Source: Microbacterium oleivorans
GTDB lineage: Bacteria; Actinomycetota; Actinomycetes; Actinomycetales; Microbacteriaceae
Length of the DNA stretch: 64,000 bases
NCBI RefSeq assembly: GCF_001691565.1
Contig: NZ_MAYO01000003.1
Coordinates: forward strand, 620,001-684,000
Direction: 5' to 3'
The position numbers were made by a program, and so were the translations under genes. The notes beneath the pieces are model-generated. The model did not search any database, was not told the DNA's origin, and was given only the letters and a program-made list of their open reading frames with translations. Shown here one piece after another: positions 11,881 through 16,472 of the stretch; position 1 is the first letter of the stretch, and every line of letters starts with the position of its first letter.

Positions 11881-12690
11881 ATGTCCCCGCGCCGCCTCAC
11901 CCTCGCCGCAGCTCTCACCGCCGCCGCCGTCGCCCTCCTGGCCGGCTGCGCCTCCCCCGCAGGTCAGGGCGGCGCCGACGTCCAGACCATCCGGGTCGGC
12001 GCCGTCACCTCACCGATGACCGACATCGTCGACGCCGCCGCAGACGAGATCGAGGACGGCTACGAGATCAAGCTCGTCGAGGTCGCCGACTACGTCACGA
12101 TCAACAAGATGCTCGCTGCGGGCGACATCGACGCGAACTTCTCGCAGCACAAGCCCTACATGGAGGAGTTCAACGCCGCCAACGACGCGGATCTCACCGC
12201 CGTGCAGCCGATCTACAACTTCACGATCGCGTTCTACTCGAAGACCCTCGACGACATCGCCGACCTCCCGCAGGGCGCCACCGTCGCGATCCCCAACGAC
12301 GCGTCCAACACCGGGCGCGCGCTGAAGATGCTCGCCGACGCGAAGATCATCACCCTCGCCGAGGGCGTCGACCCGTACGCCGCGACGGTGGACGACATCG
12401 CCGAGAACCCGAAGGACCTGCAGTTCCTCGAGCTGCAGATCAACCAGCTCAACACCGCCTACGACGAGGCCGACCTCGTCTTCCAGTGGCCCTCGCACAT
12501 CGCCGCGCTCGGCCTCACCCCTCAGGACGACGGCCTGCTGACCGAGCTCGACGACCGGTTCGCCCTGCAGCTGGTCGTGCCCGGGGAGGACAAGGATGCC
12601 GCGTCGACCAAGGCTCTTGTCGACGCGTTCACGAGCGAACCGGTCCGGAAGATCATCGACGGCAACAAGACCATCGAGACCGCTTTCTGA
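11881..12690 (+). CDS. metQ: Methionine-binding lipoprotein (NlpA/MetQ family)
   Basis: Extracytoplasmic substrate-binding protein of the MetNIQ system, 269 residues. A lipoprotein signal ends in the lipobox LLAGC with the lipidated Cys at residue 23. The mature part matches MetQ (VADYVTINKMLAAGDIDANFSQHKPYMEEFN, IPNDASNTGRALKML). AAGGAG lies 5 nt before the ATG. The palindromic element that follows may act as terminator. Confidence 0.94.
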   Translation: MSPRRLTLAAALTAAAVALLAGCASPAGQGGADVQTIRVGAVTSPMTDIVDAAADEIEDGYEIKLVEVADYVTINKMLAAGDIDANFSQHKPYMEEFNAANDADLTAVQPIYNFTIAFYSKTLDDIADLPQGATVAIPNDASNTGRALKMLADAKIITLAEGVDPYAATVDDIAENPKDLQFLELQINQLNTAYDEADLVFQWPSHIAALGLTPQDDGLLTELDDRFALQLVVPGEDKDAASTKALVDAFTSEPVRKIIDGNKTIETAF

Positions 12691-12695
12691 GCCTT

Positions 12696-12780
12696 GCGCG
12701 TCGCTTCGCGAGGAGATGGCGCGTCCCGAGGGCCGGATCCCGGCATCCGCTCCTCGGGAACCTCCATCTCCTCGCGAAGC
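12696..12780. repeat. 85-bp palindromic element, copy 1
   Basis: The outer arms are a perfect 17-bp inverted repeat (12703-12719 and 12764-12780, GCTTCGCGAGGAGATGG). Inside it are further nested pairs: TCCCGAG/CTCGGGA and GCCGG/CCGGC. It lies between the convergent stops of metQ and the DUF559 gene. A second copy at 13707-13791 differs at one base. REP/REPIN-like or MITE-like; it could also terminate transcription. Confidence 0.9.
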
Positions 12781-12781
12781 G

Positions 12782-13615
12782 TCACCCCTCGGCGAGGTGC
12801 AATCCCTGTGCCACGGCGCGGGTGATCGTGTCCTGCACGACGTGCCAGCGGTGGACCACCTGGGCGTATCCGACACGGACCACGTGATAGCCGAGGAGCA
12901 TCAGTTCGGCATCGTGAGCGTTATCGCCGTCGCGCTGGGCTCCCACGTGAGTGCCGCCGTCGATCTGCAGAACGAGGCGATCGCCGATCAGGAAGTCCAC
13001 GCGGTGTCCTGCGATCCACGCCTGCGGGACGATGGGCACGCGCAGCCACGCGAGCCGCGGCGGGATGAAGGACTCGAGACCCGATCCGGCGAACGGGGTC
13101 GCCTGCGCCAAGACCTCCCGAGCCCGCCCGGGGAACGGGAGCCGGCGCAGAACCGGTAGCTGCACCATCCCGCGCTCGAGGGCCGACTCCCAGATCGCGA
13201 GGGCCTCCTCGAACGGTAGGCACGAGGCGGTCAGCGCGAGCACGTTCTCGATCGGATCGACGAGCGCGTCGGGCGCGCGGGGCACGATCGGTTCCGCCCA
13301 GTGGACGACCGTGTTCGGGTTCTCGATCCGGACCGAGCCCGAATGAGCGGATGCCGCAACGTGCACGGCATCCGATCGAAACACCCACAACCCGAGCCGC
13401 TGCGCCTGCGTCGCGCACGAGAGGACGACTCCCGCGGCGGCTGCCGCTCGGAGCGCGGGATCGCTCCTCGGCGTCGCGACCCAGCCCCGCCTCGGCCTCA
13501 CCAGCTCGCCCGCGTCCACCGCCACTCGCACCGCTCGGTCGCTGAAGCCCTGTCGGCGCAACGCCGCCGATCGAACGATCCCGCCGCCCTGCGCCACCGC
13601 ATCCGTCACCCTCAT
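12782..13615 (-). CDS. DUF559 / Vsr-like nuclease-fold protein with AbiEi-type N-terminal domain
   Basis: Product of 277 residues. The first 80 resemble the winged-helix N-terminal domain of AbiEi-type antitoxins (GGGIVRSAALRRQGFSDRAVR, then LVRPRRGWVA). The C-terminal 90 are a DUF559 domain of the PD-(D/E)XK/Vsr fold, with candidate metal ligands in VDFLIGDRLVLQIDGGTH and the DAELMLLGYHVVRV strand. Such genes are common in actinobacteria and their function is not established; there is no AbiEii-type toxin next to it. The ATG at 13615 is the first plausible start. The gene is framed by two copies of an 85-bp palindrome and interrupts the stretch between metQ and valS. Confidence 0.8.
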   Translation of the reverse strand: MRVTDAVAQGGGIVRSAALRRQGFSDRAVRVAVDAGELVRPRRGWVATPRSDPALRAAAAAGVVLSCATQAQRLGLWVFRSDAVHVAASAHSGSVRIENPNTVVHWAEPIVPRAPDALVDPIENVLALTASCLPFEEALAIWESALERGMVQLPVLRRLPFPGRAREVLAQATPFAGSGLESFIPPRLAWLRVPIVPQAWIAGHRVDFLIGDRLVLQIDGGTHVGAQRDGDNAHDAELMLLGYHVVRVGYAQVVHRWHVVQDTITRAVAQGLHLAEG

Positions 13616-13706
13616 CCGCACAGCCTGGGCGCCCCGACCTTCCTGCGGCGCGCACGGCGGGACGGTGTGCACAGACAGACCCGACCCGTCCGCCCGGGAG
13701 GAGGCA

Positions 13707-13791
13707 GCGCGTCGCTTCGCGAGGAGATGACGCGTCCCGAGGGCCGGATCCCGGCATCCGCTCCTCGGGAACCTCCATCTCCTCGCGAAGC
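13707..13791. repeat. 85-bp palindromic element, copy 2
   Basis: Same orientation as copy 1 and identical at 84 of 85 positions (A instead of G in the left arm, giving GAGATGA). It lies upstream of the DUF559 gene and of the valS promoter. The distance between copies is 1011 bp. I saw no third copy in the window. Confidence 0.9.
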
Positions 13792-13826
13792 CGCGTCGCG
13801 CCTCGGTCCCACCAGCACCCCGGCGG

Positions 13827-13832
13827 TAGACT
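13827..13832 (+). promoter_or_regulatory. Likely valS -10 box (TAGACT)
   Basis: TAGACT lies 63 nt before the valS ATG, just after palindromic element copy 2. No good -35 was found at 16-18 bp. A T-box was looked for in the leader and not seen. Confidence 0.4.
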
Positions 13833-13895
13833 GTCTGCCACCCACACTCAGGCACGCTCACACAGTGCCGCACATATCGCTCGAGGAGCCCCACC

Positions 13896-16472
13896 ATGAC
13901 GAACGCGCAGATTCCCGACAAGCCCGCCCTGGAAGGCCTCGAGCAGAAGTGGGATGCCGCCTGGTCCGGCTCCGGCACCTATCTGTTCGACCGCGACGCG
14001 GCCAAGGCCAAGGGTCGCGCAGGCGTCTTCTCGATCGACACGCCTCCCCCGACGGCATCCGGATCGCTCCACATCGGTCACGTGTTCAGCTACACGCACA
14101 CCGACGTGAAGGTGCGCTACGAGCGCATGCGCGGCAAGACAGTGTTCTACCCGATGGGCTGGGACGACAACGGTCTGCCCACGGAACGCCGCGTGCAGAA
14201 CTACTACGGCGTGCGCTGCGACACCTCGCTCCCCTACGACCCCGATTTCACGCCGCCCTTCCGCGGTGACGCGAAGAGCCTCAAGCCGGCCGATCAGGTG
14301 CCGATCAGTCGTCGCAACTTCATCGAGCTCTGCGAGGAGCTGACGATCGAGGACGAGAAGCAGTTCGAAGACCTGTTCCGCAAGCTCGGCCTCTCGGTCG
14401 ACTGGACCCAGACCTACCGGACCATATCGGACGACACGATCCGCACGAGCCAGCTCGCCTTCCTCCGCAACCTCGACCGCGACGAGGCGTACCAGGCCAT
14501 GGCGCCCACCCTCTGGGACATCGACTTCCGCTCCGCGATCGCCCAGGCCGAGCTCGAGGACCGCGACCAGCAGGCCTCGTACCACCGCGTCGCCTTCCAC
14601 AAGAGCGACGGTTCGGGCGACATCCACATCGAGACGACGCGTCCCGAGCTGCTCGCCGCCTGCGTCGCCCTCGTGGCGAACCCCGACGACGAGCGCTACC
14701 AGCCCTACTTCGGCTCGACCGTTCGGACCCCCCTGTTCGACGTCGAGGTGCCGGTCCTCCCCCACCCCCTCGCGGTGAAGGACAAGGGCACCGGCATCGC
14801 CATGATCTGCACGTTCGGCGACGTGACCGACATCATCTGGTGGCGTGAGCTCGACCTGCCGAACCGCACCATCCTCGGCCGCGACGGTCGCATCATCGAC
14901 GAGGCCCCCGACGTGCTCGTGACGGATGACGCGAAGGCGGCGTACGCGGAACTCGCCGGCAAGACGGTGTTCAGCGCCAAGAAGCGCATCGTCGAGCTGC
15001 TGCACGAGTCCGGCGAGCTGCTCGAGGTGTCGAAGCCCTTCACCCACCCCGTGAAGTTCTACGAGAAGGGCGACCGCCCCCTCGAGATCGTCTCCACCCG
15101 CCAGTGGTACCTCCGCAACGGCGCCCGCGACGCGGAGCTTCGCGAGAAGCTCATCGAGATGGGCCGCGGCATGGGCTGGCACCCGGACTTCATGCGCGTG
15201 CGCTACGAGAACTGGACGAACGGCCTCACCGGCGACTGGCTCGTCTCGCGCCAGCGCTTCTTCGGTGTGCCGATCCCGGTCTGGTACGGCCTCGACGAGA
15301 ACGGCGAGCGGGACTACGACCGCGTGCTGATCCCCGACCTCTCGCGCCTGCCGGTCGACCCGACCACAGACCTGCCCGACGGCTACACCGAGGACCAGCG
15401 CGGCGTGCCCGGCGGCTTCGACGCCGAGCGCGACATCTTCGACACGTGGGCGACATCCTCCCTCACCCCGCAGCTCGCGGGCGGGTGGGAGCGCGACCCC
15501 GAGCTCTGGGACCTCGTGGCCCCGTTCGACGTCCGCCCGCAGGGCCAGGACATCATCCGCACGTGGCTGTTCTCGACGATGGTTCGATCGGTGCTCGAAG
15601 ACGGCCGCGCGCCGTGGACGGATGCCGCAATCTCGGGCTTCATCGTCGACCCCGACCGCAAGAAGATGTCGAAGTCGAAGGGCAACGTCGTGACGCCCGC
15701 CGACATCCTCGACGCGCACGGCACCGACGCGGTCCGCTACTGGGCGGCCTCGAGTCGCCTGGGCGCCGACGCGGCGTTCGATCCGCAGAATCCGACGCAG
15801 GTGAAGATCGGTCGTCGCCTCGCGATCAAGGTGCTGAACGCGGCGAAGTTCGTGCTCTCGTTCCCCGTCCCCGAGGACGCTCGCATCACCCACGCGCTGG
15901 ACGCGTCGATGCTCGCGACCCTCGACCAGGTGGTCCGGGATGCCACGAAGGCGTTCGACGCCTTCGATCACGCCCGGGCGCTGGAGATCACCGAGGCCTT
16001 CTTCTGGACCTTCTGCGACGACTACCTCGAGCTCGTCAAGGAGCGCGCCTACAACCAGTCCGACGCCGGCCAGGCCTCCGCCGCTCTGGCTCTGCGCACC
16101 GCACTGTCGACGCTTCTGCGCCTGCTTGCCCCCGTGCTGTCGTTCGCGACGGAGGAAGCGTGGTCGTGGTTCGAGGAGGGGTCGGTGCACACGGCATCCT
16201 GGCCCCAGCCGCTGGGCATCGAGGGCGACCCCGCCGTTCTCCGCACTGTGGGCGAGGCACTGATCAGCGTGCGTCGCGCGAAGACCGAAGCCAAGGCGTC
16301 GCAGAAGACCCCCGTGGAGTCGCTGACCATCACGGGTCCGGACACCGCGCTCGACGCGATCCGCTCGGCGGAGGGCGACCTCGCCGCGGTCGGACGCATC
16401 GCGCAGATGTCGTACGCCGCCGGTGACACCGTCTCGGTCGGCGACATCGTCCTCACCCCGCAGGAGGCCTGA
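13896..16472 (+). CDS. valS: Valyl-tRNA synthetase
   Basis: Class Ia synthetase that charges tRNA-Val and edits Thr-tRNA-Val. The product has 858 residues. HIGH is H59-IGH and KMSKS is K590-MSKS. The stretch GWDDNGLPTERRVQNYYGVRCD, with extra residues before the usual fold, marks the archaeal-like second ValS type found in several actinobacteria. GAGGAG lies 8 nt before ATG 13896. The small gene that follows has its ribosome site inside the end of valS. Confidence 0.97.
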   Translation: MTNAQIPDKPALEGLEQKWDAAWSGSGTYLFDRDAAKAKGRAGVFSIDTPPPTASGSLHIGHVFSYTHTDVKVRYERMRGKTVFYPMGWDDNGLPTERRVQNYYGVRCDTSLPYDPDFTPPFRGDAKSLKPADQVPISRRNFIELCEELTIEDEKQFEDLFRKLGLSVDWTQTYRTISDDTIRTSQLAFLRNLDRDEAYQAMAPTLWDIDFRSAIAQAELEDRDQQASYHRVAFHKSDGSGDIHIETTRPELLAACVALVANPDDERYQPYFGSTVRTPLFDVEVPVLPHPLAVKDKGTGIAMICTFGDVTDIIWWRELDLPNRTILGRDGRIIDEAPDVLVTDDAKAAYAELAGKTVFSAKKRIVELLHESGELLEVSKPFTHPVKFYEKGDRPLEIVSTRQWYLRNGARDAELREKLIEMGRGMGWHPDFMRVRYENWTNGLTGDWLVSRQRFFGVPIPVWYGLDENGERDYDRVLIPDLSRLPVDPTTDLPDGYTEDQRGVPGGFDAERDIFDTWATSSLTPQLAGGWERDPELWDLVAPFDVRPQGQDIIRTWLFSTMVRSVLEDGRAPWTDAAISGFIVDPDRKKMSKSKGNVVTPADILDAHGTDAVRYWAASSRLGADAAFDPQNPTQVKIGRRLAIKVLNAAKFVLSFPVPEDARITHALDASMLATLDQVVRDATKAFDAFDHARALEITEAFFWTFCDDYLELVKERAYNQSDAGQASAALALRTALSTLLRLLAPVLSFATEEAWSWFEEGSVHTASWPQPLGIEGDPAVLRTVGEALISVRRAKTEAKASQKTPVESLTITGPDTALDAIRSAEGDLAAVGRIAQMSYAAGDTVSVGDIVLTPQEA

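Follow-up and report, generated by a model that had tools for sequence, protein, structure and literature searches.

Palindromic DNA elements and the nuclease gene that lies between them are strongly associated in Microbacterium oleivorans and its relatives. On balance, they probably form a two-part selfish or semi-domesticated DNA system, in which an AbiEi–DUF559 nuclease would recognize, cut, and homogenize a family of palindromes. It would resemble REPIN/RAYT systems while using an enzyme unrelated to theirs, one that would cut the palindrome and promote its copying. Searches of an open-access library, preprints excluded, gave no description of DUF559 genes flanked by palindromes. Judged by titles and abstract openings, none of the 14 papers there that mention DUF559 deals with palindromes beside it; two of them also contain the string 'palindrom'. 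REP-type palindromes are common in bacteria; a cognate nuclease from another superfamily would give orphan repeats a candidate enzyme, and short repeats would then have a second means of persisting. Nature also supplies here a set of protein–DNA pairs in which DNA specificity seems to be set by a small protein segment.

A nuclease gene lies between two near-identical palindromes

The window, that is, the whole stretch of 64,000 nucleotides analyzed here (G000:C3:620001-684000), comes from a source genome of 2.92 Mb in three contigs. The features of the locus are as follows.

11881..12690, + strand: left neighbor, MetQ/NlpA-family lipoprotein gene; ends 5 bp ahead of copy 1
12696..12780, + strand: left palindromic element (copy 1); from repeat scan and predicted fold; palindromic arms 12702-12781
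12782..13615, - strand: gene for a 277-aa protein; winged helix and AbiEi-like domain ~1-174, DUF559/Vsr-fold nuclease ~177-274; start codon inferred
13289..13393, - strand: codons for residues 76-110, a predicted beta-hairpin; from covariation and structure model; strands 86-89 and 104-107
13707..13791, + strand: right palindromic element (copy 2), direct orientation; from repeat scan and predicted fold; weaker arms 13701-13804
13896..16472, + strand: right neighbor, valS (valine--tRNA ligase); from NCBIfam

An earlier note on this DNA had described two near-identical, same-orientation palindromes of 85 bp, and this description is borne out. The two copies are direct repeats identical at 84/85 positions, and each is an imperfect palindrome: copy 1 has 40-nt arms that are 85% complementary (12702-12781), while copy 2 has 52-nt arms that are 75% complementary (13701-13804). 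Their predicted RNA folding energies, with 15 nt of flank per side, are approximately -68 kcal/mol (copy 1) and -76 kcal/mol (copy 2). Within 12400-14100, exact repeats reach a length of at least 39 nt, compared with at most 15 nt in 200 mononucleotide shuffles. Copy 1 lies at the convergent end of metQ and the DUF559 gene, and copy 2 lies in the divergent region between the DUF559 gene and valS. We rejected the palindrome as a known RNA family, since Rfam yields only microRNA models far below their gathering scores. The commonest 8-mer in the window, CGGCATCC/GGATGCCG, occurs 85 times on both strands (47 and 38, against ~6 each expected from an order-3 Markov model, or ~6-8 times expectation) and is also present inside the palindromes.

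The gene between the palindromes was said to encode a nuclease with an AbiEi-type N-terminus and to sit between metQ and valS; domain, fold, and neighbor assignments all agree. Its reading frame ends at 12782 and likely starts with the ATG at 13615. Both AbiEi_4 and DUF559 exceed their gathering scores in a Pfam scan, which lists these two domains and no transposase above cut-off, while NCBIfam gives zero matches for the protein. The left neighbor matches Pfam Lipoprotein_9 above cut-off (NCBIfam MetQ models fall below theirs), and the right neighbor matches the NCBIfam valine--tRNA ligase model above cut-off.

Residues 1-174 resemble the AbiEi fold (6y8q, Z 10.1 over 173 residues, 4.2 Å). The nuclease domain, at ~177-274, resembles the homing endonuclease I-Bth0305I (3r3p, Z 13.0 over 94 residues, 2.4 Å), NGO0050 (3hrl, Z 12.6 over 89 residues, 1.6 Å), and Vsr (1vsr and 1cw0, Z 9.8 over 95-98 residues), the last tied with a Toxoplasma mitoribosomal protein. 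Four residues, E182, D208, D220, and H224, are invariant in a 24-sequence alignment, where, as in the covariation analysis, residue 1 is the position just ahead of Met. The AlphaFold model (mean pLDDT 90.8) places strands at 86-89 and 104-107, and the loop that joins them varies in length in the alignment. The PADLOC models matched are those for AbiEi, with a best E of 1e-4.

Palindrome pairs recur around AbiEi–DUF559 genes

All seven DUF559 genes found in the same genome (six by homologue search and one, at C3:1861781, by Pfam search) have palindromes on both sides, and each gene has a sequence version of its own: GAGGAGATG at the window gene, and CGGATTCGGA, GATGCACGAC, ATGCAATAG, and CCGTTCTCCGGA at other genes. 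For six of these genes, the upstream and downstream flanks of the same gene score 83, 33, 32, 23, 64, and 27, so that the diagonal of the six-gene matrix spans 23-83, while flanks of different genes reach a similarity of at most 27. By eye, the least alike flanking pair is that around C3:457838. The homologue at this place (L061, G000:C3:457838-458659), a second one (L094), and the copy in G120 each have one in-frame TGA inside the match; L061 and L094 are possibly decaying genes or over-long matches.

Paired flanks are also widespread among relatives. We scored 139 loci, which include 10 repeats of the same gene and thus represent 129 distinct loci. The genus sample (L060-L094) comprises six loci of the source genome and 29 further best hits; the second sample, the best 80 of 149 loci from Microbacterium, Leucobacter, Agromyces, and other Microbacteriaceae; and the order-level sample, 24 of 30 best hits, six of the same genus having been left out. 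A locus passed the joint test if its flank similarity reached a fixed threshold of 22 and one or both copies proved palindromic when compared with shuffles. Among the 129 distinct loci, all best hits of longer lists, flanks are paired at 109 and both paired and palindromic at 96, with 33 failing the joint test. By sample, 31/35 genus loci, 58/80 loci of the second sample, and 11/24 order-level loci pass. The pairing of palindromes with a nuclease of a family other than RAYT, which the earlier note had proposed by likeness to REP/RAYT pairs, is therefore strong as an association (7/7 genes of the source genome and 96/129 loci).

This pattern is not shared by control sequences. Displaced windows, in which pairs were shifted by 700-1000 bp within the same loci, never pass the joint test (0/135), nor do other genes of the window (0/40); without the palindrome demand, 3/135 displaced windows are paired. 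The similarity of the 300-bp flanks exceeds that of the highest dinucleotide shuffle (one shuffle per locus) at 33/35 genus loci, 68/80 loci of the second sample, and 22/24 order-level loci. Shuffles, displaced windows, and control genes together reject the idea that any gene has similar flanking sequence. The flanking pairs are mostly direct, with 68 direct and 16 inverted among the 84 pairs scoring at least 24 (from 111 loci, with same-gene repeats kept).

The palindrome-pairing signal weakens with distance. The phylum-level sample held 30 loci, six of which were dropped for incomplete flanks. Among fused genes outside the order, 5/17 score at least 24 (L295, L303, L306, L307, and L360) and 6/17 reach 22; L362, an order-level gene present only in that same more distant sample, also scores at least 24. 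Among twelve short, stand-alone DUF559 loci from the phylum-level sample (six of them in the single genome G736), 5 of the 11 that were scorable reach at least 24 (L352, L343, L348, L346, and L351).

The cassette is old at the metQ–valS site

Three states occur at the metQ–valS site in relatives: a full cassette, a single palindrome, and an empty site. Among the genomes whose metQ and valS flanks are 93-95% identical, G347 carries the full cassette; in G056 there is a single palindrome, which combines the left border of copy 1 with the right border of copy 2; and G015 is empty, with zero palindromes. The comparison of this interval for empty sites and target duplications, which the earlier note had suggested, thus reveals a gene that is not fixed, while no target-site duplication is seen at the borders of the empty site in G015. 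Neither G015 nor G056 is among the 240/366 genomes with a homologue at E <= 1e-60.

Full cassettes are also found in G216, G318, and G154 (flanks 84-95% identical), which indicates that the cassette is old at this site. Single-palindrome and empty states are therefore probably losses, and the full cassettes in relatives suggest loss rather than invasion of an empty allele. A DUF559 match lies within ~1.3 kb of the valS match in at least 11/35 genus genomes.

The two flanking copies evolve in concert, as judged from alignments of the five full-cassette genomes. Over their ten pairwise comparisons, we counted 43 concerted sites (0-7 per pair), at which both copies share a genome-specific base, and only one copy-specific site (G216-G154). 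Homogenization is not constant, since the two copies in G154 are only 70% identical. The 84/85 identity at the window locus had been read as a sign of recent duplication. This reading is rejected: relatives whose proteins are 86-87% identical have the cassette in this very position, and changes are shared by both copies, so that concerted evolution at an old locus explains the identity better.

Palindromes covary with a predicted beta-hairpin

For each 15-residue window of the protein, we related identity between loci to the similarity of their palindromes, while correcting for identity in the rest of the protein and using permuted locus labels as the null. The set of 88 loci was reduced to 69 after dropping proteins at least 85% identical; pairs scoring below 24, genes with a stop in frame, and L061, L094, L187, L215, L221, L226, and L251 were left out. 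Across the 69 loci, windows spanning residues 76-110 predict palindrome similarity by far the best, with a peak at 86-100 (partial Spearman 0.388, z 8.2, 0/300 permutations). Windows within residues 41-65 reach z ~2, and those inside the winged helix z <=1.2.

We had expected the winged helix to be the main specificity reader. This was rejected by its partial correlation of 0.006 (88 loci) and by the low z of its windows, with one exception: among the 47 most similar pairs (identity elsewhere 0.70-0.86), the winged helix correlates strongly, and more so than the hairpin (0.857 versus 0.717). In strata 0.5-0.6 and 0.6-0.7, the hairpin correlation is 0.376 and 0.357, compared with -0.028 and 0.097 for the winged helix. 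In the most distant stratum (0.3-0.5), the hairpin correlation is weak (0.174) and that of the winged helix is -0.103. This covariation supports the view that the protein recognizes its cognate palindrome, mainly via the AbiEi-like beta-hairpin and not via the winged helix. The hairpin at residues 76-110 may thus be the DNA-reading arm.

Solo palindromes are few and diverged

The palindromes are not confined to the flanks of the gene. The window family occupies at least five full-length places in its own genome, namely, the flanking pair, C2:383666, C3:810546, and C3:1025869, and other palindrome families of this genome also have matches away from their gene. With the flanking pair included, G138 has at least 11 full-length places of its own palindrome version, G439 has 10, and G444 has 3. 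These copy numbers are lower bounds, as 40 candidates were scored out of 76 (window family), 328 (G138), and 138 (other families of the source genome); in the palindrome search over genus genomes, 4 candidates per genome were scored. Solo copies are few, and most share 75-90% identity with the query, so any palindrome spreading would be slow.

Similar palindromes (E <= 1e-5) occur in 8/16 genomes with a close protein (E <= 1e-100), compared with 9/181 others (Fisher p 4.5e-6). This test covers 197 genus genomes, the source genome excluded, and its p value is to be read with flanking copies counted, kinship ignored, and thresholds set afterwards. The earlier note had named scatter of the element with no link to DUF559 genes as an outcome that would speak against it; solo copies do exist, yet the association is strong.

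Sites of solo palindromes differ between relatives, and the aligned cases of presence and absence can be read as losses. At the C3:810546 site, G015 keeps a remnant that looks like the product of a deletion between short repeats. At another solo palindrome of the source genome (C2:378609), G347 has ~1.1 kb of other sequence (L366, G347:C1:2085800-2088200), with a 334-aa frame that has a NERD (nuclease-related) domain. Two copies in contig C7 of G439 flank a frame read as an unrelated esterase, with no DUF559 match there.

Proposed mechanism

The first part of the system would be imperfect palindromes of ~60-100 bp. The second would be a protein that joins an AbiEi-type DNA-reading domain to a Vsr-fold PD-(D/E)XK nuclease and is encoded between two palindromes of its own. 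By eye, the outer and inner palindrome arms share the same short motif in several families, which would give four binding sites. The protein would recognize its cognate palindrome chiefly by the AbiEi-like beta-hairpin, and the nuclease would nick or cut the palindrome when extruded as a hairpin or cruciform, e.g., during replication. Repair from another copy would homogenize the two flanking copies, and the same repair might occasionally seed a copy elsewhere. We propose cutting of the extruded palindrome and copying by repair because of the fold of the protein and the behavior of REPIN–RAYT systems. The gene would mostly stay at its locus for long times, and its loss would leave a single palindrome after recombination between the flanking copies or an empty site after deletion.

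Alternative explanations

The main rival, which we regard as rather unlikely, is that the palindromes are operators and terminators: the protein would regulate itself in the manner of AbiEi, the downstream copy would end transcription, and solo copies would be other regulated sites, with no mobility or cutting. AbiEi antitoxins bind inverted repeats at their own promoters, and the N-terminal part of the protein matches an AbiEi antitoxin structure. The two copies would be suitably placed for such roles, one where metQ and the DUF559 gene converge and the other where the DUF559 gene and valS diverge, and covariation is compatible with binding without cutting. However, concerted change and dispersed copies speak against this explanation, which accounts poorly for 43 concerted versus 1 copy-specific sites over ten genome pairs, for near-full-length copies elsewhere, and for the retention of a nuclease fold with invariant acidic residues.

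Less probable still is maintenance by the host: the direct copies would stay alike through general recombination alone, and the gene would ride along in a composite element under slow decay. The prevalence of direct pairs (68/84 scored) fits this explanation, and the exactly one fused copy in G056 is the expected product of recombination between direct copies. It nevertheless leaves unexplained the gene-specific palindromes of each paralogue, the covariation with one protein segment, the inverted pairs (16/84), and the reappearance of this layout at DUF559 genes that stand alone. We give very little weight to the idea of genome guarding, in which the nuclease would recognize the palindrome so as to destroy or limit it, with the flanking copies serving as an immunity or addiction signal. 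Specific recognition is indicated by covariation, Vsr-type and homing nucleases have this fold, and the PADLOC matches are to AbiEi models, but similar palindromes are found more often, not less, in genomes that have a close gene (flanking copies included), and the gene itself lies between two targets.

Comparison with known systems

The likeness of the proposed two-part system to REPIN–RAYT systems, as these are described in PMC2817692 and PMC3116915, extends to a nuclease gene between two palindrome copies, a palindrome that is also scattered in the genome, several gene–palindrome pairs per genome, and a gene position that is kept while the palindrome sequence changes. RAYTs belong to the tyrosine transposases of the IS200/IS605 type (Pfam PF01797 in PMC2817692), and their flanking REPs are inverted relative to each other; according to PMC2817692, REPs usually exceed 100 copies. 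Here, in contrast, the IS200/IS605-type tyrosine (HUH) transposase PF01797 is absent and an AbiEi plus DUF559/Vsr-fold protein is present instead; pairs are mostly direct (68 to 16, with a direct pair at the window gene itself); and the elements, of ~60-100 bp, have few copies, the 3-11 full-length places counted in four genomes (lower bounds) being far below the usual number for REPs. The system thus works like a REPtron but is not one, because its enzyme is no tyrosine transposase and its pairs are mostly direct. This closest system shares neither its enzyme superfamily nor its expected chemistry; the gene-between-palindromes layout is common to both. CGTC-tagged REPs, with stems of 8-9 bp and CGTC as end motif, are similar in being bacterial palindrome families without a known transposase; according to PMC3733652, they apparently have no dedicated one.

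The resemblance to AbiEi of AbiE type IV toxin–antitoxin systems lies in the AbiEi_4 domain and the fold of residues 1-174. In the present protein, however, the AbiEi-like domain is fused to a nuclease, and no toxin, including the AbiEii nucleotidyltransferase, is encoded by the genes adjoining the window locus, which are those for the MetQ/NlpA-family lipoprotein and valS. Vsr, NGO0050, and Caulobacter VsrA share the nuclease fold (1vsr/1cw0, Z 9.8; 3hrl, Z 12.6). PMC12907096 discusses Caulobacter VsrA, which carries a DUF559 domain, as an enzyme of mismatch repair with ties to a cytosine methyltransferase; the string 'palindrom' does not occur in that paper. I-Bth0305I shares the fold of the catalytic domain (3r3p, Z 13.0). 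Unlike a homing endonuclease gene of this kind, the gene described here is intergenic, with palindromes on both sides, and is not nested within a gene. An empty allele of the site exists in G015, although the full cassettes in relatives suggest its origin by loss. For an insertion sequence or composite transposon, a precise empty site and a target-site duplication would be expected; G015 has an empty site, with no clear duplication at its borders.

Stand-alone DUF559 genes on plasmids

Similar layouts occur around DUF559 genes that stand alone on plasmids and megaplasmids. The sample comprises 14 of 39 records, and one large fusion (L396) was left unscored, giving 13 loci. Nine of the 13 score at least 24; we count eight, because one of the nine (L395) is non-palindromic and looks like coding sequence. 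By similarity and inspection, hairpins are thus present on both sides in 8/13 loci, whereas the strict shuffle test finds 5/13 paired and palindromic; L384, L385, and L389 have short hairpins that the eye can make out but that fail this test. Among 78 further genes on four of these plasmid records, no score reaches 22. The hairpins are of the CCCTCTCCC type or similar, and their hosts are Deinococcus, Azospirillum, Sinorhizobium, Qipengyuania, Pseudanabaena, and Picosynechococcus.

A wider reading, which we advance tentatively and consider somewhat doubtful, is that many orphan families of palindromic repeats have their cognate enzymes in the DUF559/Vsr-fold superfamily. This superfamily would then constitute a second, HUH-independent class of palindrome-mobilizing systems, with an AbiEi-type beta-hairpin able to evolve new specificities. 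The orphan families concerned would be the actinomycete elements, the CCCTCTCCC-type hairpins of Deinococcus, Azospirillum, and rhizobia, and the cyanobacterial hairpins.

Hairpins of the CCCTCTCCC(GCAAG)GGGAGAGGG type look alike beside DUF559 genes of Azospirillum and Deinococcus, which are distant hosts (L388, L389, L384, and L385). In Sinorhizobium meliloti pSymB (L390), the repeat upstream of the DUF559 gene is found at 20 places in that record. It is matched by 105 Rhizobiaceae plasmid records; the other 24 rows among the matches listed span ~45 bp only.
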